Source: a virus. Taken from it: 25,579 nt of DNA. The notes under the pieces were generated by a model, which was not told the origin of the DNA, ran no database searches, and was given only the letters and a program-made list of their open reading frames with translations. Location of the stretch: IMG/VR virus record IMGVR_UViG_3300034063_000493, positions 1 to 25,579 of that record; one strand, written 5' to 3'. Positions 6,858 through 25,500 of this stretch are shown here, piece after piece (within the stretch, counting starts at the first letter, position 1; each line of letters begins with the position of its first letter). The translations under genes were made by a program, and so were the position numbers.

Positions 6858-6889
6858 CTTTCGTCTCCCTTTGTTGTGCCAAAGGGGCG

Positions 6890-6918
6890 ACTTTAGCGAA
6901 TGGTGTACAGACGTTCAA
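6890..6918 (-). promoter_or_regulatory. Integrase promoter with a TGTACA dyad in its spacer
   Basis: On the minus strand TTGAAC (complement of 6913-6918) is separated by exactly 17 bases from TAAAGT (complement of 6890-6895), close to sigma70 -35 and -10 boxes. The start of int is about 32 bases downstream of the -10. The spacer contains the palindrome TGTACA (6904-6909). A second copy, the perfect dyad CTGTACAG, lies at 6968-6975 in the same divergent region. A repressor binding these would control int. The promoter fit is visible; the operator role is inference. Confidence 0.55.
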
Positions 6919-7042
6919 TCTGCACCCCATCCGTTAAAACAATCCCCGGCTTTGGCTGGCTGCGATACTGTACAGCGTTTCGAGTAAGGACGGCAAGGCG
7001 AGTCGGCCCGTACGATTAGGCACCCGGCAACGGTTGCGACCC

Positions 7043-7336
7043 ATGGCAAAGAAAAAACGGCCAGCCCCTAGACACATCGGTAAACTGCTCGCCATGGACA
7101 TGGCAACGGAGACAGAACGTGAATTGGTGGGCACGGCCGAGGCCGCCAAGATCCTGGGCATAAACGCGACGCACGTCCGCCAGTTGGCCCGAGACAACGA
7201 AATCTGGTCAGACACCCGATTTGGGAAGCGTTGCCCCGTATACGACGCCGTCGAGCTCCGCGAGCGAGCCGAGCGGATCTCAGCCGACAGGGCGGCCGGC
7301 AAGCGCCCAGGTCGCCCGCCAAGCGGCGGCCAGTAG
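7043..7336 (+). CDS. HTH DNA-binding protein, possible excisionase or regulator
   Basis: A 97-residue protein from ATG 7043. A TTG at 7034 and ATGs at 7094 and 7100 are alternatives, and none has a clear ribosome site. After a basic N-terminal tail, residues about 32-85 form a MerR/excisionase-like winged helix: LVGTAEAAKILGINATHVRQ, then a wing ending in CPVYDAVEL. The C-terminus is basic and Pro/Gly-rich (GKRPGRPPSGG). It is divergent from the integrase across a 185-base region, the usual place of a directionality factor or lysogeny regulator. DNA binding is well supported; the exact role is not. Confidence 0.65.
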   Translation: MAKKKRPAPRHIGKLLAMDMATETERELVGTAEAAKILGINATHVRQLARDNEIWSDTRFGKRCPVYDAVELRERAERISADRAAGKRPGRPPSGGQ

Positions 7337-7697
7337 GGCGGATTTCCAGGCCGAGAAAATCTTCTCAAGCCGGCCTTGACGTTTCGCAGATAACTGCGTT
7401 ACCCTTCCGCACGCATGGAGAACGCCGTGAAGCGAGTGACTTGGAACGACGCCGTGGTTGCTCTGACGCTGGTTCACCTGGGCCAGCAGCTGGGAACCGA
7501 AAGCACGCTTGCTCGAGCAGTGTTCGACATCGCAACGCTTGTCGCGTCTTTTTTTGGCCGCATTTCATAGATACGTGCGAAACGCAAAACCAAGCGAAAG
7601 GAGTGCTTTGCGTTACGCGACTGGAATGTTCGTACACCACTACTTGCCAGCAGACTGCACGTCCGTACACTACGCCACCCAAGGAGGAATCCCCCAC
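7337..7697 (+). promoter_or_regulatory. Leader region between the HTH gene and the next strong start
   Basis: This stretch holds a GAGAAaatcTTCTC dyad (7353-7366), a TTGACG box (7376-7381) with TACCCT 18 bases later (7400-7405) as a candidate promoter, and a possible 51-codon gene starting ten bases beyond. It also has an AAAGGAG site before an in-frame TTG at 7608, and an AAGGAGGAA site at 7681-7689. Two CGTACAC copies lie 33 bases apart (7631-7637 and 7664-7670). It looks like an early-promoter region; the individual calls are weak. Confidence 0.4.
7415..7570 (+). CDS. Possible 51-residue peptide, perhaps leaderless
   Basis: An ATG frame of 51 codons with high GC in third positions. The peptide has a hydrophobic segment (DAVVALTLVHLGQQLG) and a second one near the end (RAVFDIATLVASFFGRIS). 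There is no ribosome site, but the candidate -10 (7400-7405) would start transcription within a few bases of the ATG, which would suit a leaderless message. It may be a small membrane peptide. It could also be a chance frame in a regulatory region. Confidence 0.4.
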   Translation: MENAVKRVTWNDAVVALTLVHLGQQLGTESTLARAVFDIATLVASFFGRIS

Positions 7698-7964
7698 ATG
7701 GACGCTCACGAAAAAGAATACCTCGCCGCCGTCGCCGCCATGCCCGAGCACACCGTTTCGGGCGGCACCACGCGGCTCATCGACGGGCAGCTGGTCACGA
7801 CCTACGCGGTCGGTGATCGCATCCGCTGGATCGAGAAGGGCCGCACGCTCAACGGCGTCGTGGTCGAGGTGCTGACGGATGACACCTACCACGTGCGGCG
7901 TCACGTTCCCGATCACGGGAACCTGCACTACGCCGTGACGGCCGATCAGATCACGCCGTTCTGA
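7698..7964 (+). CDS. Small hypothetical early protein (88 aa)
   Basis: The ATG at 7698 has one of the best ribosome sites in the window (AAGGAGGAA at 7681-7689). An in-frame TTG at 7608 with its own AAAGGAG site would add 30 residues, so two forms are possible. The 88-residue protein has a compact beta-rich centre, including a TYAVGDRIRWIEKGRTLNG segment and VVVEVLTDDTYHVRR. This reads like an SH3/Tudor-like small barrel, as in many DNA- or RNA-associated accessory proteins. That fold guess is weak. It heads the early genes before the RecT-like gene. Confidence 0.55.
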   Translation: MDAHEKEYLAAVAAMPEHTVSGGTTRLIDGQLVTTYAVGDRIRWIEKGRTLNGVVVEVLTDDTYHVRRHVPDHGNLHYAVTADQITPF

Positions 7965-8197
7965 ACGCAAAAATCACGGCGGATATGGCACGGGGGTTGC
8001 CCCCCCCCCCCCCGTTTATCTTCGCCCCCTCAACAGAGGACACCCGTACACAGGACCACCGAGAGAAGGAGTTAACCGGTGGAAGGAGTGGCGTCGGAGA
8101 CGCCAGAGCAAGGACGCACGAACCACCCGCAACGCAGGACGCCGAGCGGGATTTTCAAAGAAAAGTGACGCAAGTTTTCTTACGAAAGGACGCGACG
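7965..8197 (+). promoter_or_regulatory. Leader of the RecT-like gene with a 14-C homopolymer and two hairpins
   Basis: GGGGG (7992-7996) is followed by an unbroken run of 14 C (8000-8013). Downstream are a perfect hairpin GGCGTC-gga-GACGCC (8090-8104) and an AT-rich inverted repeat AAGAAAA/TTTTCTT (8158-8164 and 8175-8181) just before the GAAAGGA ribosome site. An ATG at 7985 runs through the C tract in frame with the RecT-like gene, so tract length would decide whether an N-terminally extended form exists. No separate gene is convincing here. Confidence 0.45.
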
Positions 8198-9115
8198 ATG
8201 AGCACAGAGATCAGCACCCAGCGGGCCAGCGGCTTGGCCCTTCAATCGTTCGATGACGCCTTCCGCTTCAGCAAGATGGTGTCGGCCTCGGAGTTCGCCC
8301 CCAAGGATTTCAAGAACAAGCCCGAGTCCTGCATGCTGGCCATCCAGCACGGCAGCGAGGTGGGCCTGTCCCCGATGCAGAGCCTGCAGAGCATCGCGGT
8401 TATCAACGGTCGCCCGACGATCTGGGGCGACGCCGCCTTGGCCCTGGTGCAGTCGAGCCCGGTGTGCGAGTACGTCCGCGAGTACACGGAAGGCGAGGGC
8501 GACGGCCTGGTGGCCGTCTGCGAGGCCAAGCGTCGAGGCTACCCAGCACCTACCGTGGTGCGGTTCAGCGTTGCCGACGCGAAGAAGGCTGGCTTGTGGG
8601 GCAAGTCTGGCCCGTGGAGCCAATACAGCAGCCGCATGCTGACCCTGCGTGCCCGAGGCTTCGCCCTGCGTAACGCGTTCGCCGACGCCTTGCGTGGGCT
8701 CATCACGGCCGAAGAGGCCCAGGACTACCAGCACGAGCCGGCCCGCGAGCCCGTGGTGGTGCGTCCGAAGTTCCCGAAAACCGAGAGTCGCCCGGCGGCT
8801 GTGGAGCGCGGCCACGCCCCTGCAACAGCCGTTGATAGCCACGCGCAGCAGACGGCACAGCCGCCGGCCCTCTCGGCCACGAATGATCCCGTCGCCAATG
8901 CCCGGCTCGCCGTGCAGCGGACGAACAGCCTCGAGCTGCTGGCCGCCCTGCGGGATCGCGTGAACCAGCGACACCGCGAAGGCACGTTCACCGAGGCCCA
9001 ACGCAACGAGCTCGTGCACCTGATCGACGGAAAGTGCGAGTGGTTGGAAAGCGAGCCCGAGGACAACGGCCAGGAGTTCGCCCACGAAGCGGCCGCAACG
9101 GAGGCCACGTCGTGA
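8198..9115 (+). CDS. RecT-like single-strand annealing recombinase
   Basis: A 305-residue protein starting at ATG 8198 with GAAAGGA eight bases upstream. Residues about 15-180 match the phage RecT-type pattern: an AFRFSKMVSASEFAPK opening, a central LSPMQSLQSIAVINGRPTIW block, and a late RARGFALRNAFADALRGLI helix ending in AEEAQDY. The C-terminal third is low-complexity followed by a helical tail. Such proteins anneal complementary strands in phage recombination and replication, usually with an exonuclease and SSB. No exonuclease is obvious beside it except the nuclease-like gene at 9487. It overlaps the next gene by four bases (GTGA). Confidence 0.72.
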   Translation: MSTEISTQRASGLALQSFDDAFRFSKMVSASEFAPKDFKNKPESCMLAIQHGSEVGLSPMQSLQSIAVINGRPTIWGDAALALVQSSPVCEYVREYTEGEGDGLVAVCEAKRRGYPAPTVVRFSVADAKKAGLWGKSGPWSQYSSRMLTLRARGFALRNAFADALRGLITAEEAQDYQHEPAREPVVVRPKFPKTESRPAAVERGHAPATAVDSHAQQTAQPPALSATNDPVANARLAVQRTNSLELLAALRDRVNQRHREGTFTEAQRNELVHLIDGKCEWLESEPEDNGQEFAHEAAATEATS

Positions 9116-9336
9116 ATGGCTGGCCCACCTTCGATGACGTTGTCGCGTACCTCCGCGAGCACGGCAAAGCCGACATGGCGACCGTTGCCAGTGGAATGCG
9201 TGATGAGGCGCAACGTTGCCGCAAGGCTGCGGAGACGAACCTCAAGGCGTACCACGACCTCAAGATGAAGCACGAGCCACCGCCGGCAACGCCGGGGTGG
9301 AGGAGTTACCAGGCCAAGACGGAGTCGAGCGACTGA
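9112..9336 (+). CDS. Small hypothetical protein (74 aa) coupled to the RecT-like gene
   Basis: Starts at a GTG overlapping the RecT-like stop (GTGA), with GGAGG nine bases upstream. The 74 residues are largely helical and charged, with a segment around DEAQRCRKAAETNLKAYHDL that could be a coiled coil. The C-terminus is Pro-rich. Size and coupling suggest an accessory factor for the recombinase, but nothing in the sequence proves it. It is followed by a 150-base gap holding two hairpins. Confidence 0.5.
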   Translation: MNGWPTFDDVVAYLREHGKADMATVASGMRDEAQRCRKAAETNLKAYHDLKMKHEPPPATPGWRSYQAKTESSD

Positions 9337-9382
9337 CACAGCCGGCACGCCATTGCCCCAGCGGCTCACCTGGCCGCATTGG

Positions 9383-9466
9383 TCGCCACGCGGTGAGTGG
9401 CGAGTAACCACCGCAGTCGCAGCGCTACCTCCCAGCGTGATGCGACCGCGCCGGGCGTAACCCGGC
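9383..9466 (+). promoter_or_regulatory. Two perfect hairpins in the gap before the nuclease-like gene
   Basis: TCGCCAC (9383-9389) pairs with GTGGCGA (9397-9403) around a seven-base loop. GCCGGG (9450-9455) pairs with CCCGGC (9461-9466) around CGTAA. The second stem ends nine bases before the AAGGAGG ribosome site of the next gene. Neither is followed by a T run, so they are more likely RNA-processing or translational control elements than terminators. Confidence 0.4.
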
Positions 9467-9486
9467 AAACACACAAGGAGGATGTA

Positions 9487-9966
9487 GTGGGCACGGAAGT
9501 CACGCTCAGTTGGCACGAGGCCGCGATGGGCAATTGCATCGGATCGCTGCGGCAACTCTCGGCCGTCAAGGCTGGCAAGCAAGATTGCCATGGCTACGAC
9601 GGCGAGGGATGGAGCGAGCACATCGAAGGCGCGTGCGGCGAGATAGCCGTGGCAAAACTGCTCGGGATCTTCTGGGACGGCAGCGTGAACACATGGAAGG
9701 CCAACGACTTGCCTGGGCTGCAGGTACGCACGCGGAGCCGCCACGACTACGACCTGATCGTGCGGCCCAGCGATGACGACCACGCCAGTTGGGTGCTGGT
9801 GACCGGGCGGTGCCCGCATTACCGCGTGCATGGCTGGATCACTGGTGCCGCCGCAAAGCGTCCCCAGTTTCTGAAGAACTACGGCGGCAGGCCGGCTGCG
9901 TACTTCGTGCCTGCGTCGGAACTGAGGCGGATGGATGAGATGCAATCAACGGCGGCGTCTCGTTGA
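9487..9966 (+). CDS. Putative PD-(D/E)XK-fold nuclease-like protein
   Basis: A 159-residue protein whose GTG start follows AAGGAGG by five bases. Residues 40-60 form a helix with Glu in EGACGEIAVAKLLG. Then come KANDLPG, and QVRTRSRHDYDLIVR with an acidic/basic strand pattern, and a WVLV strand ending in GWI.G..AK. The order Glu in a helix, Asp before a strand, then Q-V-R-x resembles PD-(D/E)XK nucleases with a variant third motif. It could serve as the exonuclease partner of the RecT-like protein. The fold is an inference from the pattern; catalytic residues are not certain. Confidence 0.45.
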   Translation: MGTEVTLSWHEAAMGNCIGSLRQLSAVKAGKQDCHGYDGEGWSEHIEGACGEIAVAKLLGIFWDGSVNTWKANDLPGLQVRTRSRHDYDLIVRPSDDDHASWVLVTGRCPHYRVHGWITGAAAKRPQFLKNYGGRPAAYFVPASELRRMDEMQSTAASR

Positions 9967-10013
9967 CGTGCGGCCGAGGCTAGTGAAAGGACTCCAAAGC
10001 AAGGAGACGAGAG

Positions 10014-10874
10014 ATGACCGCAAATAACACGACGAACTATGAAACCTACATGACGACTATGACGGCTGCTGAGTGGGCCAACGTGCCCGACAACCCTCGC
10101 CAGCGAGACACCGTGGCTCGGGCCTCGAAGGCCAAGCATCTCAATGTGCTCGAGCCGACGCACACTCTGGTCGCGATTGCAGAGTTGCCAGACGGAAAGC
10201 GGTACAAGCTCGACGGCCACACACGAGCATACAAGTGGCAGGCAGACCCAAAGATTGCGCCTACATTCCCGCTGGATGTACGTGTTTACGTTGTCCCTGA
10301 CTTGGCTGAAGTCAAGCGACTGTATATGCACTTCGACGGCAAGGAAGCCGTTGAGACCGCTGCCGACCGAGTGTTTGGTGGGATGCGTGAGGCCAAAATC
10401 TCGCCAAAAAGCGAGTTTGTGCGACGCTCAAGGTTCGCTGCGGCGCTGACAGCAGCTTACAGCTACATCTGTGGCGACCTCATAAAGGTCGATCAGTTCG
10501 AGCGGGTCAAGTTCTTTACGAAGCAGATTCGCTCTCTCGACACGTTTGTCGGCGCCACTAAGCGGATGTGCTCGCCAGCAACGTGTGTCTACCTGATGTC
10601 GCATCGCAAGCACGGCGATGCCGTCAACGATTTCTTCCAGCGGTTCATCAAGGACGAGGGCGTCAAGGATGGGCGACGCCGCGACAGCGTGCAGTGGTTT
10701 TCGGAGCTGATGGGAGAGTACGTGAAGGCCGCTCGAGGAAAAGGCCCAGTGTTTAACCACTACGTCGGGCACGGCCTACGGTGCGTCGAAATGTGGCTCA
10801 ACGACAAATCTGCAATGACAACTCGGCCAGCAGCCGCAGTTGACCCGCACAAGTACGGCGTTGACGAGAAGTAA
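10014..10874 (+). CDS. ParB/Srx-fold phage protein
   Basis: A 286-residue protein with a strong AAGGAGA site before the ATG. Residues 20-110 contain the ParB-like core, with the signature DGHTRAYKW at 67-75 preceded by KRYKL, and a strand pair after it (PLDVRVYVV). In ParB relatives this pocket binds nucleotide or DNA phosphate; phage members act as nucleases, modification helpers or transcription regulators. The remaining 170 residues are helical, basic and Arg/Lys-rich, with no second recognisable domain. It lies just upstream of a DNA methyltransferase, a common pairing in phages. Confidence 0.68.
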   Translation: MTANNTTNYETYMTTMTAAEWANVPDNPRQRDTVARASKAKHLNVLEPTHTLVAIAELPDGKRYKLDGHTRAYKWQADPKIAPTFPLDVRVYVVPDLAEVKRLYMHFDGKEAVETAADRVFGGMREAKISPKSEFVRRSRFAAALTAAYSYICGDLIKVDQFERVKFFTKQIRSLDTFVGATKRMCSPATCVYLMSHRKHGDAVNDFFQRFIKDEGVKDGRRRDSVQWFSELMGEYVKAARGKGPVFNHYVGHGLRCVEMWLNDKSAMTTRPAAAVDPHKYGVDEK

Positions 10875-10945
10875 TCACCTCGCCGCGTCATGGATGGCAT
10901 GCACGCTCGGTCGGGTCGGGCGGCGCGGATTTCACGGAGGACGAA

Positions 10946-12256
10946 ATGGGAAGTGATTACGAACTGACACCAACCGGCCTGGTCGTCCGCGACGGATGGA
11001 CGCCGGAATTATGGGAAGCCGCCGGCCGCGAGATCGCTCGCTACCAGAAGGGGCTGATGTGGCTGATCGGCGACTGGCTGAACGCTGGCGACCGTGAAGG
11101 CTACGTCGAGCGCGGCAAGCTGGCGGAGGCGTGCGAGCGTTTTGGAATTGCCTACGGGACAGCCGCGAACGCTGCAAGCGTGGCAAGGGCTTTTCCTGAA
11201 TCTTCACTTCGTCGTGAACATTTGGAGTTTGCGCACCACCAGGCTATCGCCAACCACCCGCAGGCCACCGACCTTCTCTCGTGGGCCGAGGAGACTGGCG
11301 CCACCGTCAAGCAACTCAGAGAAGAGAAGCAGCGCCGCAGCATCGCAGCCGCGCCCGCTGCTATTGAAGCCAGCGGCACGAAGGGCGACGTGTCGTGGGA
11401 TTTCAAGGTTGGCGACTGCCGGAAACTGCCGTACCCAGACGATCACTTTGACCTTGTTTTTTGCTCGCCTCCATACGAGGCACAGCGGTCCTACGGAGAA
11501 CTCGACTTCAGCCTGTCAGGCGAGGAGTGGGTGGCGTGGGCGACCGATTGCTACATGGAGTGTCTGCGGGTCTGCAAGGGACTCGTGGCCTGGGTGGTCG
11601 AGGGCTACACCGAGGACTTCGCCTACAGCTCGACGCCGTTTCTGCTGCACGCCGACCTTCACCGTCGCGGCGTCAAGATGCGGAAGGTTGTCGTCTATCA
11701 GCGAAACGGCATCCCAGGTACCGGCGGGCCTGATTGGCTGCGGAACGACTGGGAGCCGATCATCTGCGCTACCAAGCACGGCAGGCTTCCGTGGGCAGAC
11801 AACACGGCGATGGGCCAGCCGCCGAAGCAGAACGTGCCGAGGGCAGCGACAAACAGGCACAAGGACGGGAGCCGCAAGTCTGGGATCTACATAGACCCAG
11901 AGGTGTGCAACCCAGGCAACATCATCAGCGGCCTGGTCGGCAGTGGTGGCATGGGCTGGAAGGATGCCACAAAGAACGAGGCTCCTTTTCCTGAGTGGCT
12001 GGCGGAGTTCTTTGTCCGCAGCTTCTGCCCCGAAGGTGGAACGGTGCTCGATCCGTTTAGCGGGTCAGGCACAACGGTCTCGGTCGCGGTGAGGACCGGG
12101 CGAAACGGTGTCGGCATCGACGCCAGGAAAAGCCAAGTCGCTCTTGGGGAAACCCGGCTACGCGGCCTGACTGTCGCGGAAAGCAATCAGGTGATCCCTC
12201 TTCCATACATGGAAAGCGGTCGAGTGTCAGCCGAGGAGGTTGCTTATGTCCGCTAA
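10946..12256 (+). CDS. DNA methyltransferase (N4/N6 type) fused to an LmbU-like DNA-binding domain
   Basis: A 436-residue protein with GGAGG before the ATG. Residues about 18-130 follow the LmbU-like pattern: a GLMWLIGDWLNAGDREGY block, a short HTH-like stretch, a RREHLEFAHHQAI block, and a closing VKQLREEK. Residues 150-410 are an amino-methyltransferase with motif IV SPPY (174-177) and the SAM-binding motif DPFSGSGTT (369-377) after it, the order of beta-class N6-adenine or N4-cytosine enzymes. No restriction enzyme is adjacent, so a solitary protective or regulatory methylase is likely. The target site cannot be read from the sequence. It overlaps the next gene by 11 bases. Confidence 0.88.
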   Translation: MGSDYELTPTGLVVRDGWTPELWEAAGREIARYQKGLMWLIGDWLNAGDREGYVERGKLAEACERFGIAYGTAANAASVARAFPESSLRREHLEFAHHQAIANHPQATDLLSWAEETGATVKQLREEKQRRSIAAAPAAIEASGTKGDVSWDFKVGDCRKLPYPDDHFDLVFCSPPYEAQRSYGELDFSLSGEEWVAWATDCYMECLRVCKGLVAWVVEGYTEDFAYSSTPFLLHADLHRRGVKMRKVVVYQRNGIPGTGGPDWLRNDWEPIICATKHGRLPWADNTAMGQPPKQNVPRAATNRHKDGSRKSGIYIDPEVCNPGNIISGLVGSGGMGWKDATKNEAPFPEWLAEFFVRSFCPEGGTVLDPFSGSGTTVSVAVRTGRNGVGIDARKSQVALGETRLRGLTVAESNQVIPLPYMESGRVSAEEVAYVR

Positions 12257-12479
12257 ATGGATTGGCCGCGATCCACCGAGTGAGTTCATCGCTGAAATGT
12301 GCCAGCAGTTTCAGCGTTCATGGAGTGATGAAGAGCGAAGCGCAAGGCAGGGAAAGATGATTGAGGACGGCGCGTCGTGGACTGTCCCGCAGTTCCTTCC
12401 GCATCACTGCGAGTCAGGACAGTGGGCAAAGGGCCGAGAGCGAAAAGTTGTGGTCTGGAGATGCGTAAATGGCCGCTGA
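12246..12479 (+). CDS. Small hypothetical protein (77 aa)
   Basis: The ATG at 12246 lies inside the end of the methyltransferase gene with GAGGAGG six bases upstream, so the start is well defined. The 77 residues include a helix (SEFIAEMCQQFQRSWSDEER), a Trp/Pro-rich middle (ASWTVPQFLPHHC) and a basic end with a C..W..C-like group. It overlaps the replication-like gene by 11 bases, which suggests coupled translation. No family recognised. Confidence 0.55.
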   Translation: MSAKWIGRDPPSEFIAEMCQQFQRSWSDEERSARQGKMIEDGASWTVPQFLPHHCESGQWAKGRERKVVVWRCVNGR

Positions 12480-13356
12480 ATGGTTCCCAGTAGACGTATC
12501 GCTGGACACCAAGCCCGAGGTGCAGGAGCTCGTTGACCTTACCGGCGAGCCGGTGGAGGTGATCGTCTTCCGGCTGCTCAAGCTCTGGGGCTGGGTGCAA
12601 CTCAACACGGCAGACGGCCGGTTCCGCTCGACGCCTGCCCGCCTGGGCCGGATCTGCGGTGGAGAAGCCGCGTTCTGGGAGGCGGTTGCCGCTGTCGGCT
12701 GGATCGTCTTTGACGGCGAAACTGCCCAGATTCCCAAATGGGAGGAGCGTTTTGGCGGTGCCGCCAAGCGTCGAGCCCTGAAAAACAGGCGTCAGGACAA
12801 GTGGAGGCGCACCGGAGGCGCACCTGTAGACGCTGTTGTAGACGCGCGCGAGGCGCAGGTGCGTCTACAAGCGCGTCTACCACAGGACATAACAGAACAG
12901 GACAGAACAAGAGAAGAAATACAACCGGCTGCGCCGGTAGCTACGAGCGATCCGCCGAAACGGCGGAAACGCTCGCAGCACCACGACGCGATTGCGTGGT
13001 CGGATGCTGATGGGTGGCATGGAATTACCGAGTCAGACCGCAAGGCGTGGGGCGAGGCTTACCCGGCCACTGTTCTCGACATCGAGCTCGTCCGTGCCTC
13101 GGAGTGGCTGAAGGCGAATCCGACCAGGGCTAGAAAGTCCAACTGGCGACGGTTCCTTGTGTCTTGGCTTACGAGATCGCAGGACCGTGGTGGCACAAAT
13201 CGCAGTGCCGGGAAGACACCAGAGGACGTTGCGAAGCGTGCAGCCTTGGAACGCAAGGCGCGCGAGTTTGCTGAGTACCGCCCCGCACCGTACCGCAGCC
13301 CCAAGGAAGTCGCCGCGCTTGCGGCCGGAATGAAACTCAAGGAGGAGGATCTATGA
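12469..13356 (+). CDS. Phage replication initiator / helicase-loader-like protein
   Basis: A 295-residue protein. Residues 1-95 have the winged-helix pattern seen at the N-terminus of phage replisome organisers: EWFPVDVSLDTKPEV, EVIVFRLLKLWGWV, then short strands around RFRSTPARLGRICG. A low-complexity linker (about 100-180) is encoded by the iteron/A-rich DNA described separately. The C-terminal part (185-250) contains a WGEAYPAT block and a W...NP.R..SNWRRFLVSWL helix, as in phage O/DnaD-like replication proteins. It is followed by LexA-like and clamp genes. Function is inferred from domain layout and the embedded origin-like repeats. Confidence 0.68.
   Translation: MAAEWFPVDVSLDTKPEVQELVDLTGEPVEVIVFRLLKLWGWVQLNTADGRFRSTPARLGRICGGEAAFWEAVAAVGWIVFDGETAQIPKWEERFGGAAKRRALKNRRQDKWRRTGGAPVDAVVDAREAQVRLQARLPQDITEQDRTREEIQPAAPVATSDPPKRRKRSQHHDAIAWSDADGWHGITESDRKAWGEAYPATVLDIELVRASEWLKANPTRARKSNWRRFLVSWLTRSQDRGGTNRSAGKTPEDVAKRAALERKAREFAEYRPAPYRSPKEVAALAAGMKLKEEDL
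12803..12927 (+). repeat. ori: Candidate replication origin: tandem 11-mers, four iterons and an A-rich tract
   Basis: Two exact 11-base tandem copies of GGAGGCGCACC (12803-12813, 12814-12824) come first. Next are two direct GTAGACGC boxes (12826-12833, 12838-12845) and, 15 bases on, two inverted copies GCGTCTAC (12861-12868, 12873-12880). Spacing within each pair is exactly 12 bases. TTGTAGACGC and GCGTCTACAA form a perfect inverted repeat. Then follows a purine-rich, A-rich stretch (12881-12927) with two ACAGAACA copies ten bases apart. Iterons next to an easily melted tract inside the initiator gene match the lambda ori plan. Confidence 0.62.
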
Positions 13357-13574
13357 CCGAGACGATTCAGCCACCCGCCACCGACCGCCAGCGCGAGATC
13401 CTCGACTTCGTCCGCGAACGCACGGCGCTCTGCGGCCCGACCGTCCGCGAGATCATGGAGCACTTTGGGTTCCGCTCGCCCAACGGTGCGATGTGCCACA
13501 TCCTGGCCCTGGAGCGGAAGGGTCTCATCCGCCGTCGCGCCGGCCAGACGCGTGGAATCGAGGTGGTGTCATGA
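13353..13574 (+). CDS. LexA-like DNA-binding domain without peptidase
   Basis: A 73-residue protein starting at an ATG that overlaps the preceding stop (ATGA), with AAGGAGGAGG upstream. It matches the LexA N-terminal winged-helix domain almost end to end: a TDRQREILDFVRER opening, the recognition region around GPTVREIMEHFGFRSPNGA, and an ALERKGLIRRR wing followed by RGIEV. It stops where the LexA linker and the Ser/Lys autopeptidase would begin, so it cannot self-cleave. It could bind LexA-type operators constitutively, silencing phage or host SOS genes. The target is unknown. Confidence 0.8.
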   Translation: MTETIQPPATDRQREILDFVRERTALCGPTVREIMEHFGFRSPNGAMCHILALERKGLIRRRAGQTRGIEVVS

Positions 13575-13846
13575 GCCGCCGCAAGCCGTCCCCGCAAGCC
13601 GTCGCTGACACATGCCTTGCCTCGGCGTGGCGTGACGAGATTGACGACGAGTCCAGAATCCTGCTTGAGCAGGCCCACGACACGATCACGGAGCAGTCAG
13701 ACGTGATCGAGAGGCAGCGCCACACGATTCGGCAGTTGATGAACCGTTCGGTTCGCACGGCAAAGATTCTTGAGGTTGTCGAGGCAGAACTAGCGTCGAT
13801 GCGGTTCCCGCTGTTGGGTAACGAAGACCCGGGGATGTCGCTATGA
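13571..13846 (+). CDS. Small coiled-coil hypothetical protein (91 aa)
   Basis: Starts at an ATG overlapping the LexA-like stop and ends overlapping the next ATG, so it is fully embedded in a coupled operon. Residues 20-75 form a long helix with heptad character (a LLEQAHDTITEQSDVIERQ segment, then a MNRSVRTAKILEVVEAEL segment), probably a dimeric coiled coil. The start is basic (SRRKPSPQ). No catalytic motif is present. An accessory role for the replication genes around it is plausible but unproven. Confidence 0.55.
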   Translation: MSRRKPSPQAVADTCLASAWRDEIDDESRILLEQAHDTITEQSDVIERQRHTIRQLMNRSVRTAKILEVVEAELASMRFPLLGNEDPGMSL

Positions 13847-14091
13847 CGCTCGAACAATTCGCCCTGATTTCACTGGGCCACATAAGTCTCGCCTGCACGT
13901 TTGTGTTGGGCGTTTTGGTTGGTGTTTCACTTCAGAAGAAAAGGATTTCCCATGGTCGCAACGAAGGAACGTCGCAAGACTGGTGGCATCACATTGAGCG
14001 CCGGCGAGCTGAAGAATGCTCTGCACGCTGTAAGCCCGGCTGTGCCAAGCCGAGCACCAAAGCCCATCCTGACCAACGTGCGTCTGGGTGA
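13843..14091 (+). CDS. Small membrane protein overlapping the clamp gene by 140 bases
   Basis: An 82-codon frame whose ATG overlaps the preceding stop (ATGA). Residues 5-30 form one clear membrane helix (FALISLGHISLACTFVLGVL). The remaining 50 residues are basic, Cys/His-rich and encoded entirely within the first 140 bases of the clamp gene in another frame. The N-terminal part falls in DNA with no other gene, so the gene is probably real. The C-terminal part may just be run-on into clamp sequence after loss of an earlier stop. Confidence 0.45.
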   Translation: MTLEQFALISLGHISLACTFVLGVLVGVSLQKKRISHGRNEGTSQDWWHHIERRRAEECSARCKPGCAKPSTKAHPDQRASG

Positions 14092-15061
14092 CGGGCTCGT
14101 CACCGGCACGGATCTCGAGGTGCGAATCGACGCCGCCATCGACTACCACGGCGATGCGATGCTGCTGCCGCACGGACGGCTGATGCAGATCCTAAACGCC
14201 GCCGGTGGTGAGGACGTGACGCTGGAGACCAAGGGCACGTCGTGCGTGGTGCGGTGTGGCCACGGCACGTGGACGCTGCCCGTCGAAGACGCGGCTGAGT
14301 ACCCGCTGTGGGAACCAAAGGACGCCAAGCCGGTGACGCGGCTGCCGGCTGACCAGTTCGCCAGGGCCGTGCGTGGCGTCGTGTTCGCCGCCGACCAGGA
14401 GTCGAGCCGCTACGCCCTCGGGGCGGTGCTCGTGGACGTGAAGGACGGCGTGGTCAACTTCGTGGCCACGGACGGCCGCCGGCTGTGCTCGTGCGAGATG
14501 GAACACGACCTGGCCGTCGATGACACCACGACGCTCGTGCCGAGCCGGGTGATGCAGATCCTGGCCCGCGTCGCGGTGGCGGCCGGCGAGGACTCGGTGC
14601 AGCTGGAGGCCACGGCGAACGAGCTGCTGGCGACGATCGGCGGCACGACCGTCACGGCACGGCTGACGGAGGGGCGGTTCCCAAAGTGGCGCGACGTGAT
14701 ACCGAAGGACGGCGGCGAGCCGACCACGGTGCTGGCCACCGAGTTGCTGTCAGCCACCAGGGCTGCAGCCATCGTGACGAGCGAGCAGTCGAAGGGCGTG
14801 CAGTACACGTTCACGGCTGAGGGCATCCACTTGCACGGGCAGTCGGCCGAGGCCGGCGAGTCGAGCGTGACGTGCGAGATCGTGGAGGCCGGTAAGGCGT
14901 GCAGCGTGAAGCTCGATCCCATCTTCGTCAAGGAGTGGCTCTCGGGCCTTCCGGCGGACGGCGAGCCCACGGTGAGCGTCCAGGCCACCGACGCCCAGTC
15001 GGCGGTTGTGCTTCGCACGGACACGTTCACGGGCGTCATCATGCCCCTGGCGACGGAGTGA
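13952..15061 (+). CDS. dnaN: DNA polymerase III beta sliding clamp homologue
   Basis: A 369-residue protein, the normal length for a bacterial beta clamp. The ATG at 13952 has AAAAGGA upstream; earlier in-frame starts lack one. The three-domain pattern is visible. Domain 1 has PILTNVRLGDGLVTGTDLEV, domain 2 has a FAADQESSRYALGAVLVDV block and the conserved ATDGRRL, and domain 3 ends in TGVIMPLATE, like the MPM-L C-terminus of host clamps. The ring tethers polymerase to DNA; phages rarely encode their own bacterial-type clamp. It sits in the replication operon and would recruit host polymerase III to phage replication. Confidence 0.92.
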   Translation: MVATKERRKTGGITLSAGELKNALHAVSPAVPSRAPKPILTNVRLGDGLVTGTDLEVRIDAAIDYHGDAMLLPHGRLMQILNAAGGEDVTLETKGTSCVVRCGHGTWTLPVEDAAEYPLWEPKDAKPVTRLPADQFARAVRGVVFAADQESSRYALGAVLVDVKDGVVNFVATDGRRLCSCEMEHDLAVDDTTTLVPSRVMQILARVAVAAGEDSVQLEATANELLATIGGTTVTARLTEGRFPKWRDVIPKDGGEPTTVLATELLSATRAAAIVTSEQSKGVQYTFTAEGIHLHGQSAEAGESSVTCEIVEAGKACSVKLDPIFVKEWLSGLPADGEPTVSVQATDAQSAVVLRTDTFTGVIMPLATE

Positions 15062-15063
15062 CG

Positions 15064-15372
15064 ATGGAAAACAAGCGTGCAGTCATATTGCACCAGATGT
15101 GGACTGCTGGCGAGACTGCCGAGGCGATTGGCAAACGCTTCGGAGTCTCTGCCAGCACCGTCTGCCATTGGGCGCAGAAGTACAAATTGCCAAAGCGACA
15201 GAGACCGCAAAAGAACAAGTTTGCAGACCCGTCGCCAGAAGAGATCGAGCGACTCAAGGCTGTGCTAAAGGAACGGCACATTCAAGAGCGGATGCGGGAA
15301 GACGTGACGAACACGCACAGCAAGGTTTCCAAGTGGCGGCGAGGGATATTTCAGCCGAGAGGTGTGGCGTAG
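15064..15372 (+). CDS. GcrA-like HTH DNA-binding protein
   Basis: A 102-residue protein whose ATG lies two bases after the clamp stop. Residues 8-45 read as a GcrA/Homeodomain-like HTH: LHQMWTAGETAEAIGKRFGV, then SASTVCHWAQKYKLPKR. The rest is a charged helix (SPEEIERLKAVLKERHIQER) and a basic tail. GcrA-type domains bind DNA and can respond to adenine methylation, which is notable with a DNA methyltransferase in the same region. DNA binding is well supported; the regulatory link is inference. Confidence 0.6.
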   Translation: MENKRAVILHQMWTAGETAEAIGKRFGVSASTVCHWAQKYKLPKRQRPQKNKFADPSPEEIERLKAVLKERHIQERMREDVTNTHSKVSKWRRGIFQPRGVA

Positions 15373-15399
15373 AACGCACAGGATCAGGAGCGGCGAACG

Positions 15400-15771
15400 A
15401 TGAACGATGACAACACGCAGGGCGGTGCCGAGCCGTCTCCTGCATCCGCTGGTTCCCACGGGGATGGCATGGTTGCTCGCCTCCGCAGTTGGAGGGACGA
15501 GCGCGGCTACCCAACGCCGGGCGAAATGATGGACGAAGCGGCACAAGAGATAGAGCGACTGCTGGAAAAGGAAAGCCTGCTGCTTGCGGCTGGCGACTTG
15601 CTAGAGCATCAGTTGATGAAGGTGGCCCGAGAGAGAGACGCCTTGCGTACATGCGAGCCGCAGCCCACGCTCACCGACGCGGAGCGGGAGGCGATTGCCT
15701 ACTACATCGGCACTGGCGGGCCAGATGGCGTAGACGCCACGCTCCGGTCACTGCTGGAGCGGACGAAATGA
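15400..15771 (+). CDS. Hypothetical phage protein (123 aa)
   Basis: The ATG at 15400 is preceded by AGGAG at 15387-15391. The N-terminal 25 residues are low-complexity (DNTQGGAEPSPASAGSHG). A helical middle follows, a DEAAQEIERLLEKESLLLAA stretch and HQLMKVARERDAL, with coiled-coil character. The end reads DAEREAIAYYIGTGGPDGVDATLRSLLER. Similar helix-rich proteins are common fillers in phage early regions. No function recognised. It overlaps the next gene by four bases. Confidence 0.5.
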   Translation: MNDDNTQGGAEPSPASAGSHGDGMVARLRSWRDERGYPTPGEMMDEAAQEIERLLEKESLLLAAGDLLEHQLMKVARERDALRTCEPQPTLTDAEREAIAYYIGTGGPDGVDATLRSLLERTK

Positions 15772-16013
15772 GCGAGCCGACACGCTGCGGGGACTGCTGC
15801 ACCGACACGCGGGGCCAGGAGATTCGCATGAGTGATCCAACGACAGCGACTCATGACCCGGAGGGGCCGCTGTGCTACGGATTCACGCGCGACGGCGTGT
15901 GGCTTGATACCTACTACGGCTGGGTGATTCCTGATGACGCCGTCGCTGATGCAGGCGAGGCGGGGCCGGCCACTGAGCGAGACAGCCAGCGATCAGCGGC
16001 ACCGTCCGCTTGA
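15768..16013 (+). CDS. Small hypothetical protein with an N-terminal CxxCC group (81 aa)
   Basis: Starts at an ATG overlapping the preceding stop. Residues 7-11 (CGDCC) could bind zinc but only one Cys follows (near 36). The centre has an aromatic stretch (YGFTRDGVWLDTYYGWVIPDD) and the end is Ala/Gly/Ser-rich. An ATG at 15828 is a possible later start. The ORF is weakly supported by composition and coupling alone. Confidence 0.42.
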   Translation: MSEPTRCGDCCTDTRGQEIRMSDPTTATHDPEGPLCYGFTRDGVWLDTYYGWVIPDDAVADAGEAGPATERDSQRSAAPSA

Positions 16014-16076
16014 GTTGACACGCATGCCATCTTCCGTTTGACCCGGCGGACACCGGGCGTTCACGGAGGATGTCTC

Positions 16077-16355
16077 ATGCGTTTGCTTCTCGCTTGCCTT
16101 GTGGCCCTGGCCTGCTTCACGGTTGAAGCCGCCCCGACTGTCATCGTGACGGCTCAGGATCACGCCACAGTGATCGCCCGTCGCGGCGTGCTCGTGCATT
16201 CGTCGTGCGGCCAGTACGAAGGGATCGGCTGCGGCTCGACGCCTGAGGCCGCCCGCAGGAACTGCTGTTTCTTCGGCAAGCGTGTGATCGTTGAGGAAGG
16301 CGTTGCCTACTCGCCGGCCCGTCGCCAGTGGTTCGCCGTGATTCGCTACCGGTGA
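16077..16355 (+). CDS. Small secreted protein of unknown function
   Basis: A 92-residue protein with GGAGG about seven bases before ATG 16077. Residues 1-18 form a classic signal peptide (MRLLLACLVALACFTVEA). The mature part is beta-rich with four cysteines (SSCGQYEGIGCGS, RRNCCFFGKR) that could form disulphides after export. A hairpin CCCGG/CCGGG (16042-16057) precedes its ribosome site. An exported protein in a replication region is unusual and suggests host-surface or cargo function rather than replication. Confidence 0.6.
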   Translation: MRLLLACLVALACFTVEAAPTVIVTAQDHATVIARRGVLVHSSCGQYEGIGCGSTPEAARRNCCFFGKRVIVEEGVAYSPARRQWFAVIRYR

Positions 16356-16358
16356 GCC

Positions 16359-16757
16359 GTGGCCATCACGTTCTCTGTACCGGGCGAGCCCGTCCCGCAG
16401 CCGAGGCCACGCGTCTCGACTCGGGGCGGGTTTGCACGGGCGTATGTGCCGAAGACTCACGCAGTGCATGCGTACCGGCAATCGCTTGCAGCAGCTGCTC
16501 GAGATGCTGGCGTAACGCAAACCGACGAGCCGCTCAGCGTGGTGATTGACGCCGTCTTTGTGCGGCCGAAGTCTCATATGCGGAAGAGCGGCGTGAAACC
16601 AGACGCACCCAAGCTGCCCAGGCCCGACGTGGACAACATCGCCAAGGCGTGTTTGGACGCGTTGCAGGACGTGATCGGCGATGACACATGCGTGGCCCGC
16701 CTGGTGATCGAGAAGAGTTACGGCACGGAGGCACGGACAACCGTGCGAATCGGGTGA
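16359..16757 (+). CDS. rusA: RusA-family Holliday junction resolvase
   Basis: A 132-residue protein, typical for RusA, with a GTG start three bases after the secreted-protein stop. The N-terminal block VPGEPVPQPRPRVSTRGG and the central RPDVDNIAKACLDALQ are diagnostic. Asp90, Asp92 and the acidic GDD at 107-109 are the expected metal-binding catalytic residues. RusA is a dimeric endonuclease that cuts four-way junctions made during phage recombination and replication, clearing branches before packaging. It overlaps the methyltransferase gene by four bases. Confidence 0.92.
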   Translation: MAITFSVPGEPVPQPRPRVSTRGGFARAYVPKTHAVHAYRQSLAAAARDAGVTQTDEPLSVVIDAVFVRPKSHMRKSGVKPDAPKLPRPDVDNIAKACLDALQDVIGDDTCVARLVIEKSYGTEARTTVRIG

Positions 16758-22962: not shown

Positions 22963-23379
22963 ATGCCGCAACGCATACCCGCCCATAGGCCGCTGCGTCT
23001 GCGTGCGTCGCGTCAACGGCGAGACGATAGTGCCAGGCCCAACGCAGCGGCACGCGGCTACTGCGACAAGGCACACAGGAGGTGGCGTCAGGCGGTGCTA
23101 ACGCGGGACGCGTGGCAATGCAGAGCCTGCGGGGCTGTCTGCCAGGAGTACGCACAAGCAGACCACGTTGTGCCTGTCAGCCAAGGTGGTGCGAGGTACG
23201 ACGTGGCGAATGGCCAAACGCTTTGCAGGTCGTGCCATGGACGCAAAACGCGACGCGAGCAAGGCGAAGTCGCGTCGCAAAATCGCGTCGCGGTCGCGTG
23301 TGCGAGCCAGGTCGTGGCCTCGCGGCCGACCGCGAGCCGAGACCAGGGTGGTCGAAATCACCCCAACTTTGGCCAATAA
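22963..23379 (+). CDS. HNH endonuclease
   Basis: A 138-residue protein with the HNH/zinc pattern. RDAWQCRACGAV supplies the first Cys pair, then ADHVVPVSQGG holds the catalytic His, YDVANGQTLC holds the Asn region, and C..CHGRKTRRE closes the second Cys pair. The first 35 and last 45 residues are basic or Ser-rich and poorly ordered. HNH proteins next to terminase genes are needed for cos or headful cutting in many phages, acting with the large terminase. The start is uncertain: ATG 22963 abuts a run of eight C with no ribosome site. Confidence 0.82.
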   Translation: MPQRIPAHRPLRLRASRQRRDDSARPNAAARGYCDKAHRRWRQAVLTRDAWQCRACGAVCQEYAQADHVVPVSQGGARYDVANGQTLCRSCHGRKTRREQGEVASQNRVAVACASQVVASRPTASRDQGGRNHPNFGQ

Positions 23380-23436
23380 AAACCCCGGTCGTCTCCTCTG
23401 TGAGCGCGGCCGCAAGTTTCCGCGAGGTTTTTGACC

Positions 23437-23910
23437 GTGGGAAAACGCGGCCCCAAGCCAGCACCGGCATCCGTGCGAAAGTTGGCCGGCAACCCAGGCA
23501 AGCGGAAGATCCGGCCCGACCTCCCGGCCCCGGCTGGTTCGCCACCGATGCCGAAGCGTCTCATGGTCGAGCCGCTCGCCGTGGAGAAGTGGAACGAGCT
23601 CGTGCCGATCCTGCTGGGCCTCGGCACGCTCACCACTGCTGACGGCGAAGCGTTGGCGACTTTGTGCGAGGTGTACGCTGCGACGCAGGCGTGCCTGCTC
23701 GAGCTGCGGGCCACTGGCCCTGTGATGCGAACCGACCTGGGTGGCGTCAAACCGAATCCGGCTGGCCCGTTGTATCGCAGTTTAGTGGCGCTCCAGGCTT
23801 CGCTAATGGGCGAGTTTGGCCTGACCCCGAGCAGTAGGACGCGGTTAGGTGGCAAGGAAGAAAAGCCAACCGACGAAGTCGAAGAGTTCTTCAAGCTCCA
23901 CGGTGCCTGA
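23437..23910 (+). CDS. terS: Terminase small subunit, P27 family
   Basis: A 157-residue protein from GTG 23437 (TTG 23431 is alternative) with GAGG nearby. It shows the P27-type pattern: a GKRGPKPAPASVRKLAGNPGK basic start, PPMPKRL, then the VEKWNELVPILLGLGTLT helix and a TTADGEALATLCEVYA segment. It ends in an acidic EVEEFFKLHG tail. The small subunit recognises phage DNA and recruits the large terminase for packaging. It overlaps the large-subunit start. HNH, TerS and TerL in this order is a standard packaging module. Confidence 0.88.
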   Translation: MGKRGPKPAPASVRKLAGNPGKRKIRPDLPAPAGSPPMPKRLMVEPLAVEKWNELVPILLGLGTLTTADGEALATLCEVYAATQACLLELRATGPVMRTDLGGVKPNPAGPLYRSLVALQASLMGEFGLTPSSRTRLGGKEEKPTDEVEEFFKLHGA

Positions 23911-25108
23911 TCTCTGCAAAGATGGGCAGGCCAAGTACGAGCGGGTGGTGCACTTCTTCGAGAAGATCCTGCGGCACAGCAAGGGGCAGAACGCCGGCAA
24001 GCCGTTCACGCTCCTGCCGTGGCAGCACCACGTCATGCGTGAGCTCTTCGGCCGATTGAACCCTGACGGGTTGCGGCAGCATCGCGTCGGGTACATCGAG
24101 CTCCCTAAGAAGCAGGGCAAGTCCACCACGCTTGCTGGCATCGCTCTCTACATGACCGCCTTCGACTCCGAGCCGGGGGCCGAAGTCTATGGTGCGGCCT
24201 GCGACCGCGAGCAGGCTGGCATCATCTACCGCGAGGCCGCGTCGATGGTGCGGGCTTCGCCTGCTTTGTCTCGTCACCTTGAGGTAATCGACAGCCGCAA
24301 GACGATCGTGCACAAGGCGAGCAACTCGTTCTACCGGGTTCTGAGTGCAGATGCGTTCCGGGCCGAGGGGCTAAATATCCACGCGCTGCTATTCGATGAA
24401 CTCCATGCACAAAGGGACCGACGCCTCTGGGCTTTCGCCCCTGGCCGAGAGGCTGGGGGCGAAGGCCCGGCACAACAAGAGACGCACTCAGGTACGGTGG
24501 AGCTGCTAGGAGATCGCCGCTCATTCTCTCGATCACCACGGCGGGCTACGACCGCAAGAGCATCTGCTGGGAGCAGCACGCCTACGCCGAGCGGTGCATT
24601 GCCGACCCAACAGTTGATCCGGCTTTCTTCGGGTGCATCTACGCAGCCTCGCCCGAGGACGATTGGAAGGACTCCAAGACGTGGCACAAGGCCAACCCGT
24701 CATTGGGCGAGACGATCACGGTGGAGTCATTCGCCGCCGATGCCCGAGAGGCCGAGCAGTCACCGTCGAAGCTCAATAGCTTTTTGCGATACAGACTCAA
24801 CGTCTGGACTACCCAGGACGTGCGGTGGCTCTCGCCCGACAACTGGGCCAAGTGCGGCAAGCCGCTGTCTGGCGATCTCGAGCAGCGTGAGTGGTACGCC
24901 GGGCTCGACCTTGCGACCACTTACGACTTGTCGGCCCTGGTGCTCGTCAGCCAGGCCGACGATGGCACCTTTGACGTGCTGCCTTTCTTCTGGGTTCCGC
25001 AGGAGAACGCTGCCGAGCGGACGCAGCGGGACAAGGTGGACTACATCGGGTGGATTCGTGACGGGTACATCAGGGCCACCGATGGCAACGTCACCGACTA
25101 CGACGTAA
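23849..25108 (+). CDS. terL: Terminase large subunit, N-terminal ATPase part (frame as read; true coding ends at 24430)
   Basis: This frame starts at GTG 23849 (GTG 23903 is an alternative) and encodes a Terminase_1-type ATPase. Residues 86-93 (PKKQGKST) are Walker A, and LLFDEL (180-185, Asp183-Glu184) is Walker B. Homology-like sequence runs to residue 194 (DRRLW, ending at 24430). Beyond that the frame continues open to 25108, but its translation is low-quality Arg/Ser/Thr-rich text with no terminase features, a shadow of the correct frame. The coding sense moves to the frame beginning at 24481 after a 50-base insert. It packages DNA into the prohead together with the small subunit. Confidence 0.8.
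   Translation: MARKKSQPTKSKSSSSSTVPDLCKDGQAKYERVVHFFEKILRHSKGQNAGKPFTLLPWQHHVMRELFGRLNPDGLRQHRVGYIELPKKQGKSTTLAGIALYMTAFDSEPGAEVYGAACDREQAGIIYREAASMVRASPALSRHLEVIDSRKTIVHKASNSFYRVLSADAFRAEGLNIHALLFDELHAQRDRRLWAFAPGREAGGEGPAQQETHSGTVELLGDRRSFSRSPRRATTARASAGSSTPTPSGALPTQQLIRLSSGASTQPRPRTIGRTPRRGTRPTRHWARRSRWSHSPPMPERPSSHRRSSIAFCDTDSTSGLPRTCGGSRPTTGPSAASRCLAISSSVSGTPGSTLRPLTTCRPWCSSARPTMAPLTCCLSSGFRRRTLPSGRSGTRWTTSGGFVTGTSGPPMATSPTTT
24427..24480 (+). other. 50-base insert with 20-bp hairpin and GAGA tetraloop inside terL
   Basis: Removing 24431-24480 (or 24432-24481) joins LFDELHAQRDRRLW directly to DALRYGGAARR in one open frame, as expected for this terminase family. The extra 50 bases are not a multiple of three. 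Bases 24427-24446 pair with 24451-24470 without a bulge: 20 pairs including four G-U wobbles, closed by the GNRA-type loop GAGA (24447-24450). Wobble pairs point to an RNA structure. The stem includes TGG, the last codon before the break. An A-rich tail (24471-24480) follows. Bypassed insert or inactivating insertion are both possible. Confidence 0.7.
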
Positions 25109-25500
25109 TCCGCCGCGACATCGTCGAGCTATCACAGAAGTTCAATATCCGCCAGGTGGGAATCGACCGCTGGAACGCCACGCAACTCGCTACCCAACTG
25201 CAAGGGGAAGGCGTGAATGTGACAGGCTTTGGGCAGGGCTACGGCTCCATGAGCAGCCCGAGCAAGCAGCTGGAGAACCTCGTGCTCTCGGAGAAGATCC
25301 GCCACGCCAACCACCCGGTGCTGTCGTGGATGGCTGGCAACGTGGCAGTGCAGACCGACCACCAGGGCAACATCAAGCCGAGTAAGGCAAAAAGCACGGA
25401 ACGCATCGACGGCATCGTCTCACTGGTGATGGGCCTCGGACTGCACGCCGTGGCGACTGCGAAACCAGCCGAGCAGAACTGGGACATCATCACCCTATGA
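24481..25500 (+). CDS. terL: Terminase large subunit, C-terminal nuclease part (frame-shifted continuation)
   Basis: This frame is open from 24400 to the TGA at 25498-25500. From 24481 it reads as terminase: DALRYGGAARR, PLILSITTAGYDR, then a helical linker. The RNase H-like nuclease follows, with Asp in AGLDLATTYDLSALV, a second Asp in RQVGIDRWNAT, and a third in TERIDGIVSLVMGL. The nuclease cuts concatemeric DNA during packaging. No start codon with a ribosome site lies at its beginning (the first usable one, TTG 24703, would drop key sequence), so it must be reached from the upstream part or is a remnant. It overlaps the next ATG by four bases. Confidence 0.82.
   Translation, partial: DALRYGGAARRSPLILSITTAGYDRKSICWEQHAYAERCIADPTVDPAFFGCIYAASPEDDWKDSKTWHKANPSLGETITVESFAADAREAEQSPSKLNSFLRYRLNVWTTQDVRWLSPDNWAKCGKPLSGDLEQREWYAGLDLATTYDLSALVLVSQADDGTFDVLPFFWVPQENAAERTQRDKVDYIGWIRDGYIRATDGNVTDYDVIRRDIVELSQKFNIRQVGIDRWNATQLATQLQGEGVNVTGFGQGYGSMSSPSKQLENLVLSEKIRHANHPVLSWMAGNVAVQTDHQGNIKPSKAKSTERIDGIVSLVMGLGLHAVATAKPAEQNWDIITL

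Follow-up and report, generated by a model that had tools for sequence, protein, structure and literature searches.

To our knowledge, ribosomal skipping has so far been well established in one phage gene and in the mitochondria of one yeast group. The single gene for which programmed bypass in a bacterial system has been described in detail, T4 gene 60, requires a special nascent peptide. The byp elements of Magnusiomyces capitatus mitochondria are hairpin-shaped and mobile.

In T4 gene 60, 50 nt between matched GGA codons are bypassed with help from a stop codon, two stem-loops (one at take-off, one 5') and the nascent peptide (PMC5009743, PMC11194080). Sliding processivity is constant below 56 nt and lower beyond that length (PMC11194080). 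The available part of a review describes the M. capitatus byps as numerous, independent of mRNA context and tolerant of imperfect landing codons, points to the terminase of Streptomyces phage Hau3 as a possible case of bypass, and suggests that the T4 insert may have given protection against a homing endonuclease (PMC5009743).

The stretch of DNA analysed here, referred to as the window, comprises positions 1 to 25,579 of the IMG/VR virus record IMGVR_UViG_3300034063_000493. Its large terminase gene, terL, is interrupted by 50 nt (24431-24480) and is otherwise intact. The parts of the gene are as follows.

23849..24430, + strand: upstream (ATPase) part of terL, in frame to the take-off codon (Pfam TerL_ATPase E=2e-16; ORF)
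24428..24430, + strand: TGG (Trp), the proposed take-off codon, paired at the base of the stem (reading frame; fold)
24431..24480, + strand: 50-nt insert, site D of the family, between RLW and DAL (absent/present comparison among relatives)
24481..25500, + strand: downstream (nuclease) part of terL, from the resume codon GAC (Pfam TerL_nuclease E=2e-46; ORF list)

The two parts lie in different frames, and they join against relatives without a gap once exactly 24431-24480 is left out. The empty site was observed as an 86-nt segment in 52 fetched IMG/VR contigs where the window has 136 nt, while a site D insert of 50, 51 or 52 nt was present in 55 fetched loci. The first-pass annotation had stated that the ATPase and nuclease halves are out of frame and are joined exactly by removing 50 bases. 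Alignment with the 52 relatives confirmed its coordinates and an insert length of exactly 50 nt. Positions 24431 and 24481 each have a G, which leaves the boundary uncertain by 1 nt.

In IMG/VR relatives, which are uncultured phages, inserts of this kind occupy six sites; five lie in terL and one in a glycosyltransferase-like gene. In total 31 distinct insert sequences were found, with carriers from 57 metagenome datasets. Sites are named by the residues that flank each insert. The locus counts below include some contigs fetched twice, the dataset count was made from ids taken by hand from scan tables, and the glycosyltransferase-like label comes only from the look of the sequence.

Site A, between DR and DQA in terL: 51 nt (L220, L276, L277, L278, L280)
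Site B, between EGL and NI in terL: 50 or 48 nt (20 loci)
Site C, between DEL and HAQ in terL: 50 nt (10 loci)
Site D, the window site, between RLW and DAL in terL: 50, 51 or 52 nt (55 loci)
Site E, between RYR and LNV in the nuclease domain of terL: 47 nt (L210)
Site F, between GAFW and (D/S)Q in the glycosyltransferase-like gene: 50 or 51 nt (7 loci)

Insert lengths are 47, 48, 50, 51 and 52 nt, mostly 50 or 51, and all three frame classes are represented. Two sites can be occupied on one contig, as in L088 (B and D) and in the contig of L059/L152, which has D in terL and F in the glycosyltransferase-like gene. The 31 sequences share a core consisting of a G start, a short TT-containing stretch, two covarying bases, GCCCC, a variable apical part, GGGGC and the complement. 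A covariance model of the stem was run on 73 virus records, where it identified the known inserts and one addition, the new site E, and on 549 kb of further loci, where it identified inserts of sites A and F only. No intergenic copies were among the matches in these records and loci, and no further copies of the insert were found inside the window. A nucleotide search of INPHARED phages with the insert region produced no match; TerL protein matches in those phages were below 60% identity. The first-pass annotation had proposed a search of related phages for this hairpin in additional genes, and hairpins of this kind are indeed present at six sites in two genes. Apparently the inserts are a recurring family of short, mobile hairpin elements.

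Some pattern matches were rejected. The apical-stem matches L145-L147 are intergenic hairpins and probable terminators, the stem-core matches L249, L252 and L251 are hairpins in unrelated sequence, and 12 non-terL matches from a 17-mer scan, all without a hairpin, were judged to be chance.

PHROG matches at 5922-16757 of the window comprise an integrase (5922-6857, minus strand), a RecT-like annealing protein, a DNA methyltransferase, a replication initiation protein, a DNA polymerase processivity factor and a RusA-like resolvase. Judging by this gene content, the source is probably a temperate phage or a relative of one. The carriers are tailed-phage contigs with terL, integrase, RecT and RusA genes. 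GTDB genomes contained one distant TerL (46% identity) in a Phycisphaerales MAG (L247, JAQGHM010000257.1), which is a weak hint of planctomycete hosts and too weak a match to name the host. Most contigs also have a highly conserved hairpin between genes, GGGCGGGCCGCTCC...GGGGCGGCCCGCTC, which has the motif GACGGCTTGAC ahead of it and a T-rich stretch behind it (L219:451, L093:~8100 and L143:~5608, the latter two on the minus strand, and many more). This hairpin looks like a terminator just ahead of the next gene.

The fold of the window insert has the following elements.

24427..24446, + strand: 5' arm of the 20-bp stem (fold; covariation)
24447..24450, + strand: GAGA (GNRA) tetraloop (fold)
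24451..24470, + strand: 3' arm of the 20-bp stem (fold; covariation)
24471..24480, + strand: single-stranded A-rich tail of 10 nt, ending in AGA (24478-24480), which is proposed as the landing triplet and matches TGG poorly (fold; family comparison)

Together with the four preceding bases the insert forms a perfect 20-bp stem (-43 kcal/mol, z = -6.8), while its antisense strand folds much less well (-30.7). There is no second stem longer than 12 bp anywhere in the window, and when the full window was dinucleotide-shuffled 40 times, no stem longer than 15 appeared. The 20-bp stem and GAGA loop of the first-pass annotation were reproduced, but the last 10 nt of the insert, which had been counted in the hairpin, are unpaired and outside it. 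Since the stem starts at C24427, the whole TGG codon is inside the stem, which also corrects the earlier description. The architecture is common to the family, with a stem of 17-20 bp, a loop of 4-7 nt and a tail of 7-12 nt. Family stems begin at the take-off codon or, in a few cases, just after it. The take-off codon lies within the stem-loop, only partly so in a few site D sequences and in site E.

Covariation was assessed on 19 distinct stem cores. Paired cells made up 98.9%, and 31 cells were changed on both sides compared with 10.6 in shuffles, with 0/500 shuffles as high. When the stem alignment was slid as a control, pairing dropped to 29-64%. In 17 stems read in the sense direction, the non-Watson-Crick positions were 45 G-U and 1 A-C, so the structure is kept in mRNA and not merely in DNA or on the opposite strand. 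The covariation above shuffles and the G-U bias bear out the earlier impression that the insert is selected as RNA. In our judgement it is close to certain that this is a real insert of no recent origin, that it has structure as RNA, and that the gene tolerates it and remains functional.

The flanking codons at all six sites join exactly once the insert is skipped. Simple read-through is ruled out for the versions that keep the frame (48 and 51 nt), since they contain an in-frame stop, which is TGA following 2 or 6 codons or TAG following 16. Homologues that encode the region in frame, which would have told against skipping, were therefore not found among them. The nine residues after the insert at site D show synonymous variation only, for example Asp GAC/GAT, Ala GCA/GCG and Leu CTA/TTA/CTC/CTG/CTT. 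Carriers of site D gave dN/dS values of 0.075 (ATPase part) and 0.118 (nuclease part), compared with 0.095 for the nuclease part of non-carriers. Site B carriers were left out of this calculation due to indel-caused misalignment. Purifying selection thus acts on both parts, consistent with the earlier observation that neither half is decayed. We consider it very probable that the insert is skipped during expression by some mechanism.

The sequence on either side of the insert, and the genes upstream of terL, were also compared between carriers and non-carriers.

24386..24430, + strand: upstream flank with carrier-specific synonymous codons, a co-conversion-like tract (synonymous identity)
24481..24525, + strand: downstream flank with carrier-specific synonymous codons (synonymous identity)
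22963..23379, + strand: HNH endonuclease gene, directly upstream of the probable terS (PHROG HNH E=5e-22)
23431..23910, + strand: probable small terminase gene, overlapping the start of terL (position and conservation upstream of terL; function inferred from position)

At site D, synonymous identity in the upstream flank is 0.17-0.48 between carriers and non-carriers and 0.51-0.65 among non-carriers. The corresponding values for the downstream flank are 0.18-0.38 and 0.53-0.64. The recoding extends about 15 codons (~45 nt) on both sides of each site. At sites B and C identity dips at their own positions and same-site carriers agree with each other; site F carriers have the same flank pattern by eye. 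Recoding of one flank only would have indicated that a nascent peptide is required, but the dip is two-sided. Upstream peptides differ among the six sites, and those at site D equal the peptides of non-carriers apart from codon choice. The carrier codons in the window (24386-24525) are CAA AGG ... CTC TGG before the insert and GCA ... AGG after it. In all 23 site D contexts the AGG four codons past the insert and the CTC before TGG are invariant. The carrier-specific flank codons may have hitch-hiked or may be needed for bypass.

The flank pattern resembles the trace that short-tract conversion along with the insert would be expected to leave, although this is inferred from comparison of codons alone. 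Recoding selected against a homing nuclease, or flanks that are functionally needed, could produce it as well. Inserts are scattered on a TerL nuclease tree, which implies 16 changes at site D, 6 at B and 3 at C; its branch support is modest and recombination is likely. The HNH gene was rejected as a carrier-specific mobilising enzyme since carriers and non-carriers alike have it in nearly every case where the contig extends far enough upstream. Consequently, no mobilising enzyme has been identified.

The codons before the insert at sites A to F are CGG, CTG, CTG, TGG, CGG and TGG, respectively. At 5/6 sites the insert ends in a triplet whose first two bases are those of the preceding codon. 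The chance of this is P = 5e-6, a rough value that assumes independent sites and equal bases. The match is exact at site B (all but one sequence, CTA), at C, at E and in one F sequence (TGG), and it is limited to the first two bases at A (CGG/CGT) and in the remaining F sequences (TGG/TGC). Site D is the exception, with AGA, CGC, CGA or TGA as the last triplet in different carriers versus TGG. At sites C, E and F the shared suffix is exactly 3 nt and is in phase with the reading frame, a phase that a target-site duplication would not need to keep. The codon following take-off is always a sense GNN codon, and no site has an adjacent stop. This weak point, raised by the first-pass annotation for the window, thus extends to all six sites. 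TGA is the second codon after take-off at sites C and F and in two B sequences.

Two variants were noted. L250 (~213-265) has the sole 48-nt insert at site B, in which the tail is 2 nt shorter and the CTG landing codon is retained; this natural variant is informative for landing rules. The site D insert of L049 ends in TGA where its nearest relatives have AGA. If the last triplet is decoded as a sense codon in other carriers, the L049 protein would end there.

For site D, the favoured but unsettled interpretation is take-off at TGG and landing on the poorly matched last triplet, by which Asp is kept. Asp is conserved in the 23 contexts, and this favours landing on the last triplet. Take-off at GCT with landing on GCA/GCG, a wobble option proposed earlier, would lose Asp; the same tRNA-Ala could read these codons, and this option is not excluded. 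Landing from CTC 24425 to CTC 24487, also proposed earlier, is unlikely because the downstream Leu varies among carriers (CTA/TTA/CTC/CTG/CTT) like a normally decoded codon.

The best explanation for skipping is ribosomal bypass of the hairpin elements, to which we assign a probability of roughly two in three (0.66). This mechanism is inferred in the absence of transcript, ribosome profile or protein data. The first-pass annotation had already suggested that the terminase is made by ribosome hopping over the hairpin, as in T4 gene 60 and the byps, and that proposal remains the best fit. Translation would reach the codon before the element (TGG in the window), which lies at the base of a highly stable hairpin of 19-20 bp. 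Next, the peptidyl-tRNA would release the mRNA, the ribosome would slide over ~50 nt, and decoding would restart directly past the landing triplet at the end of the short unpaired tail. The outcome would be one full-length TerL from two disjoined frames. The 47-52 nt element may hold everything needed and may be self-sufficient, an inference drawn from its presence in six peptide contexts. It would spread among related phages by recombination that carries a flank of ~45 nt per side, although the mode of movement, like the landing triplet at the window site, is inferred. Points against bypass are the mismatch at site D, the lack of an adjacent stop and the lack of an apparent nascent-peptide signal, and the matched triplets could be relics of target-site duplication.

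Bypass is not separated from precise RNA excision by the present evidence, and excision is the main rival and is not excluded. A micro-intron, in which an unknown endonuclease-ligase removes hairpin and tail from the mRNA and the exons are rejoined, explains exact skipping at six sites in all three frame classes equally well. The recoded flanks are also like co-conversion around homing introns. We nonetheless find it unlikely, as its 3' boundary would be 7-12 nt beyond the stem, without a consensus, at a position that tracks the preceding codon, and codon pairing fits such a boundary better than a splice site does. The archaeal tRNA-type splicing substrate is a bulge-helix-bulge, from which the continuous stem differs, and there is no known splicing partner. 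An Rfam search of the window gave no match, either to an RNA family in general or to a group I or II ribozyme core, and the insert is only 50 nt.

A joined protein might also be unnecessary, if carriers make separate polypeptides or if the insert tunes or blocks TerL expression. The upstream frame of the window stays open well past the insert, to 25108, and some carriers at sites A, B and F have a start codon ≤27 nt from the resume point, both of which suit this idea. At sites C, D and E, however, the first in-frame start codon is 45-474 nt past the resume codon (TTG at 24703 in the window, 222 nt downstream), beyond conserved residues, and a separate downstream protein is therefore unlikely. 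The five break points in terL include positions within the ATPase core, next to the LLFDE (Walker B-like) motif, and within the nuclease domain, and downstream codons at site D are synonymous right up to the insert. We therefore regard separate products as improbable.

Still harder to sustain is the idea that the inserts are mobile palindromic DNA, REP- or MITE-like with a 3-bp target duplication, which inactivates genes and leaves carriers defective or helper-reliant. Hairpin shape, direct triplet repeats and scatter on the TerL tree (16 changes at site D) would all follow from it, but purifying selection on both parts in carriers would not, nor would the covariation with its strong sense-strand G-U bias, the codon phase of the matched triplets, or the absence of intergenic copies from the 73 virus records and 549 kb of further loci. 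The main alternative of the first-pass annotation, a recent inactivating insertion, fails since the insert recurs in tens of independent assemblies, covaries, occurs in all frame classes at several sites and separates parts that are both under purifying selection. An assembly or sequencing artefact can be dismissed with hardly any reservation, as 57 metagenome datasets have contigs that contain the insert or its relatives, the flanks of these inserts diverge and compensatory changes are present; no point was found in its support.

The balance tips slightly in favor of an undescribed class of phage mobile element, a self-sufficient ~50-nt hairpin that is skipped by bacterial ribosomes after any suitable codon and is spread by homing-like conversion with recoded flanks. 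If this is true, such an element could invade essential genes at little cost, and the family would represent a mobile element whose persistence rests on being skipped. A set of portable elements that vary naturally across six sites would identify the minimal RNA needed for a bacterial ribosome to release and land, and it would offer many natural replicates for landing rules and length limits. There is also a consequence for annotation, in that a carrier terL has the appearance of a damaged or frameshifted gene, so that work on viral metagenomes may discard or misannotate it. The literature search yielded no report of such an insert family in phages, with most subscription journals and preprints outside its coverage.

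Among known systems, homing introns and inteins in phage genes are similar in their insertion at conserved motifs and in carrier-specific flanks that resemble co-conversion. They differ in that the family inserts are far too short for a ribozyme or protein, and no insert-specific endonuclease was found. The bypass candidate of Hau3 is likewise in a phage terminase gene, but as far as the available part of the review describes it, the gap is much shorter, is tied to a UUA codon and is not accompanied by a hairpin insert family (PMC5009743).

The likeness to T4 gene 60 is closer. Both have a gap of about 50 nt (47-52 in the family) in a phage gene, both have out-of-frame parts that are rejoined (by inference in the family), and in both the take-off codon is held in a stem-loop. 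The insert sizes also fit the range below 56 nt in which processivity is constant (PMC11194080). Unlike T4 gene 60, which has a stop directly after take-off, the family inserts have none. They have one long perfect 19-20 bp stem that starts from the take-off codon, no dedicated nascent-peptide signal is evident, and many copies occur at several sites in two genes. No sequence relation to T4 gene 60 was seen, though none was tested.

The family is like the byps in having multiple short inserts at many coding positions, here six sites in two genes. With regard to imperfectly matched landing and context independence it is closer to the byps than to T4 gene 60. The byps are found in fungal mitochondria, whereas the family is in bacteriophage genes and hence would be translated by bacterial ribosomes. 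It is further distinguished from the byps by GC-rich stems, a uniform size of 47-52 nt and carrier-specific recoded flanks. The family thus resembles both the byps and T4 gene 60 but is a member of neither, as it has no adjacent stop codon and is not mitochondrial.
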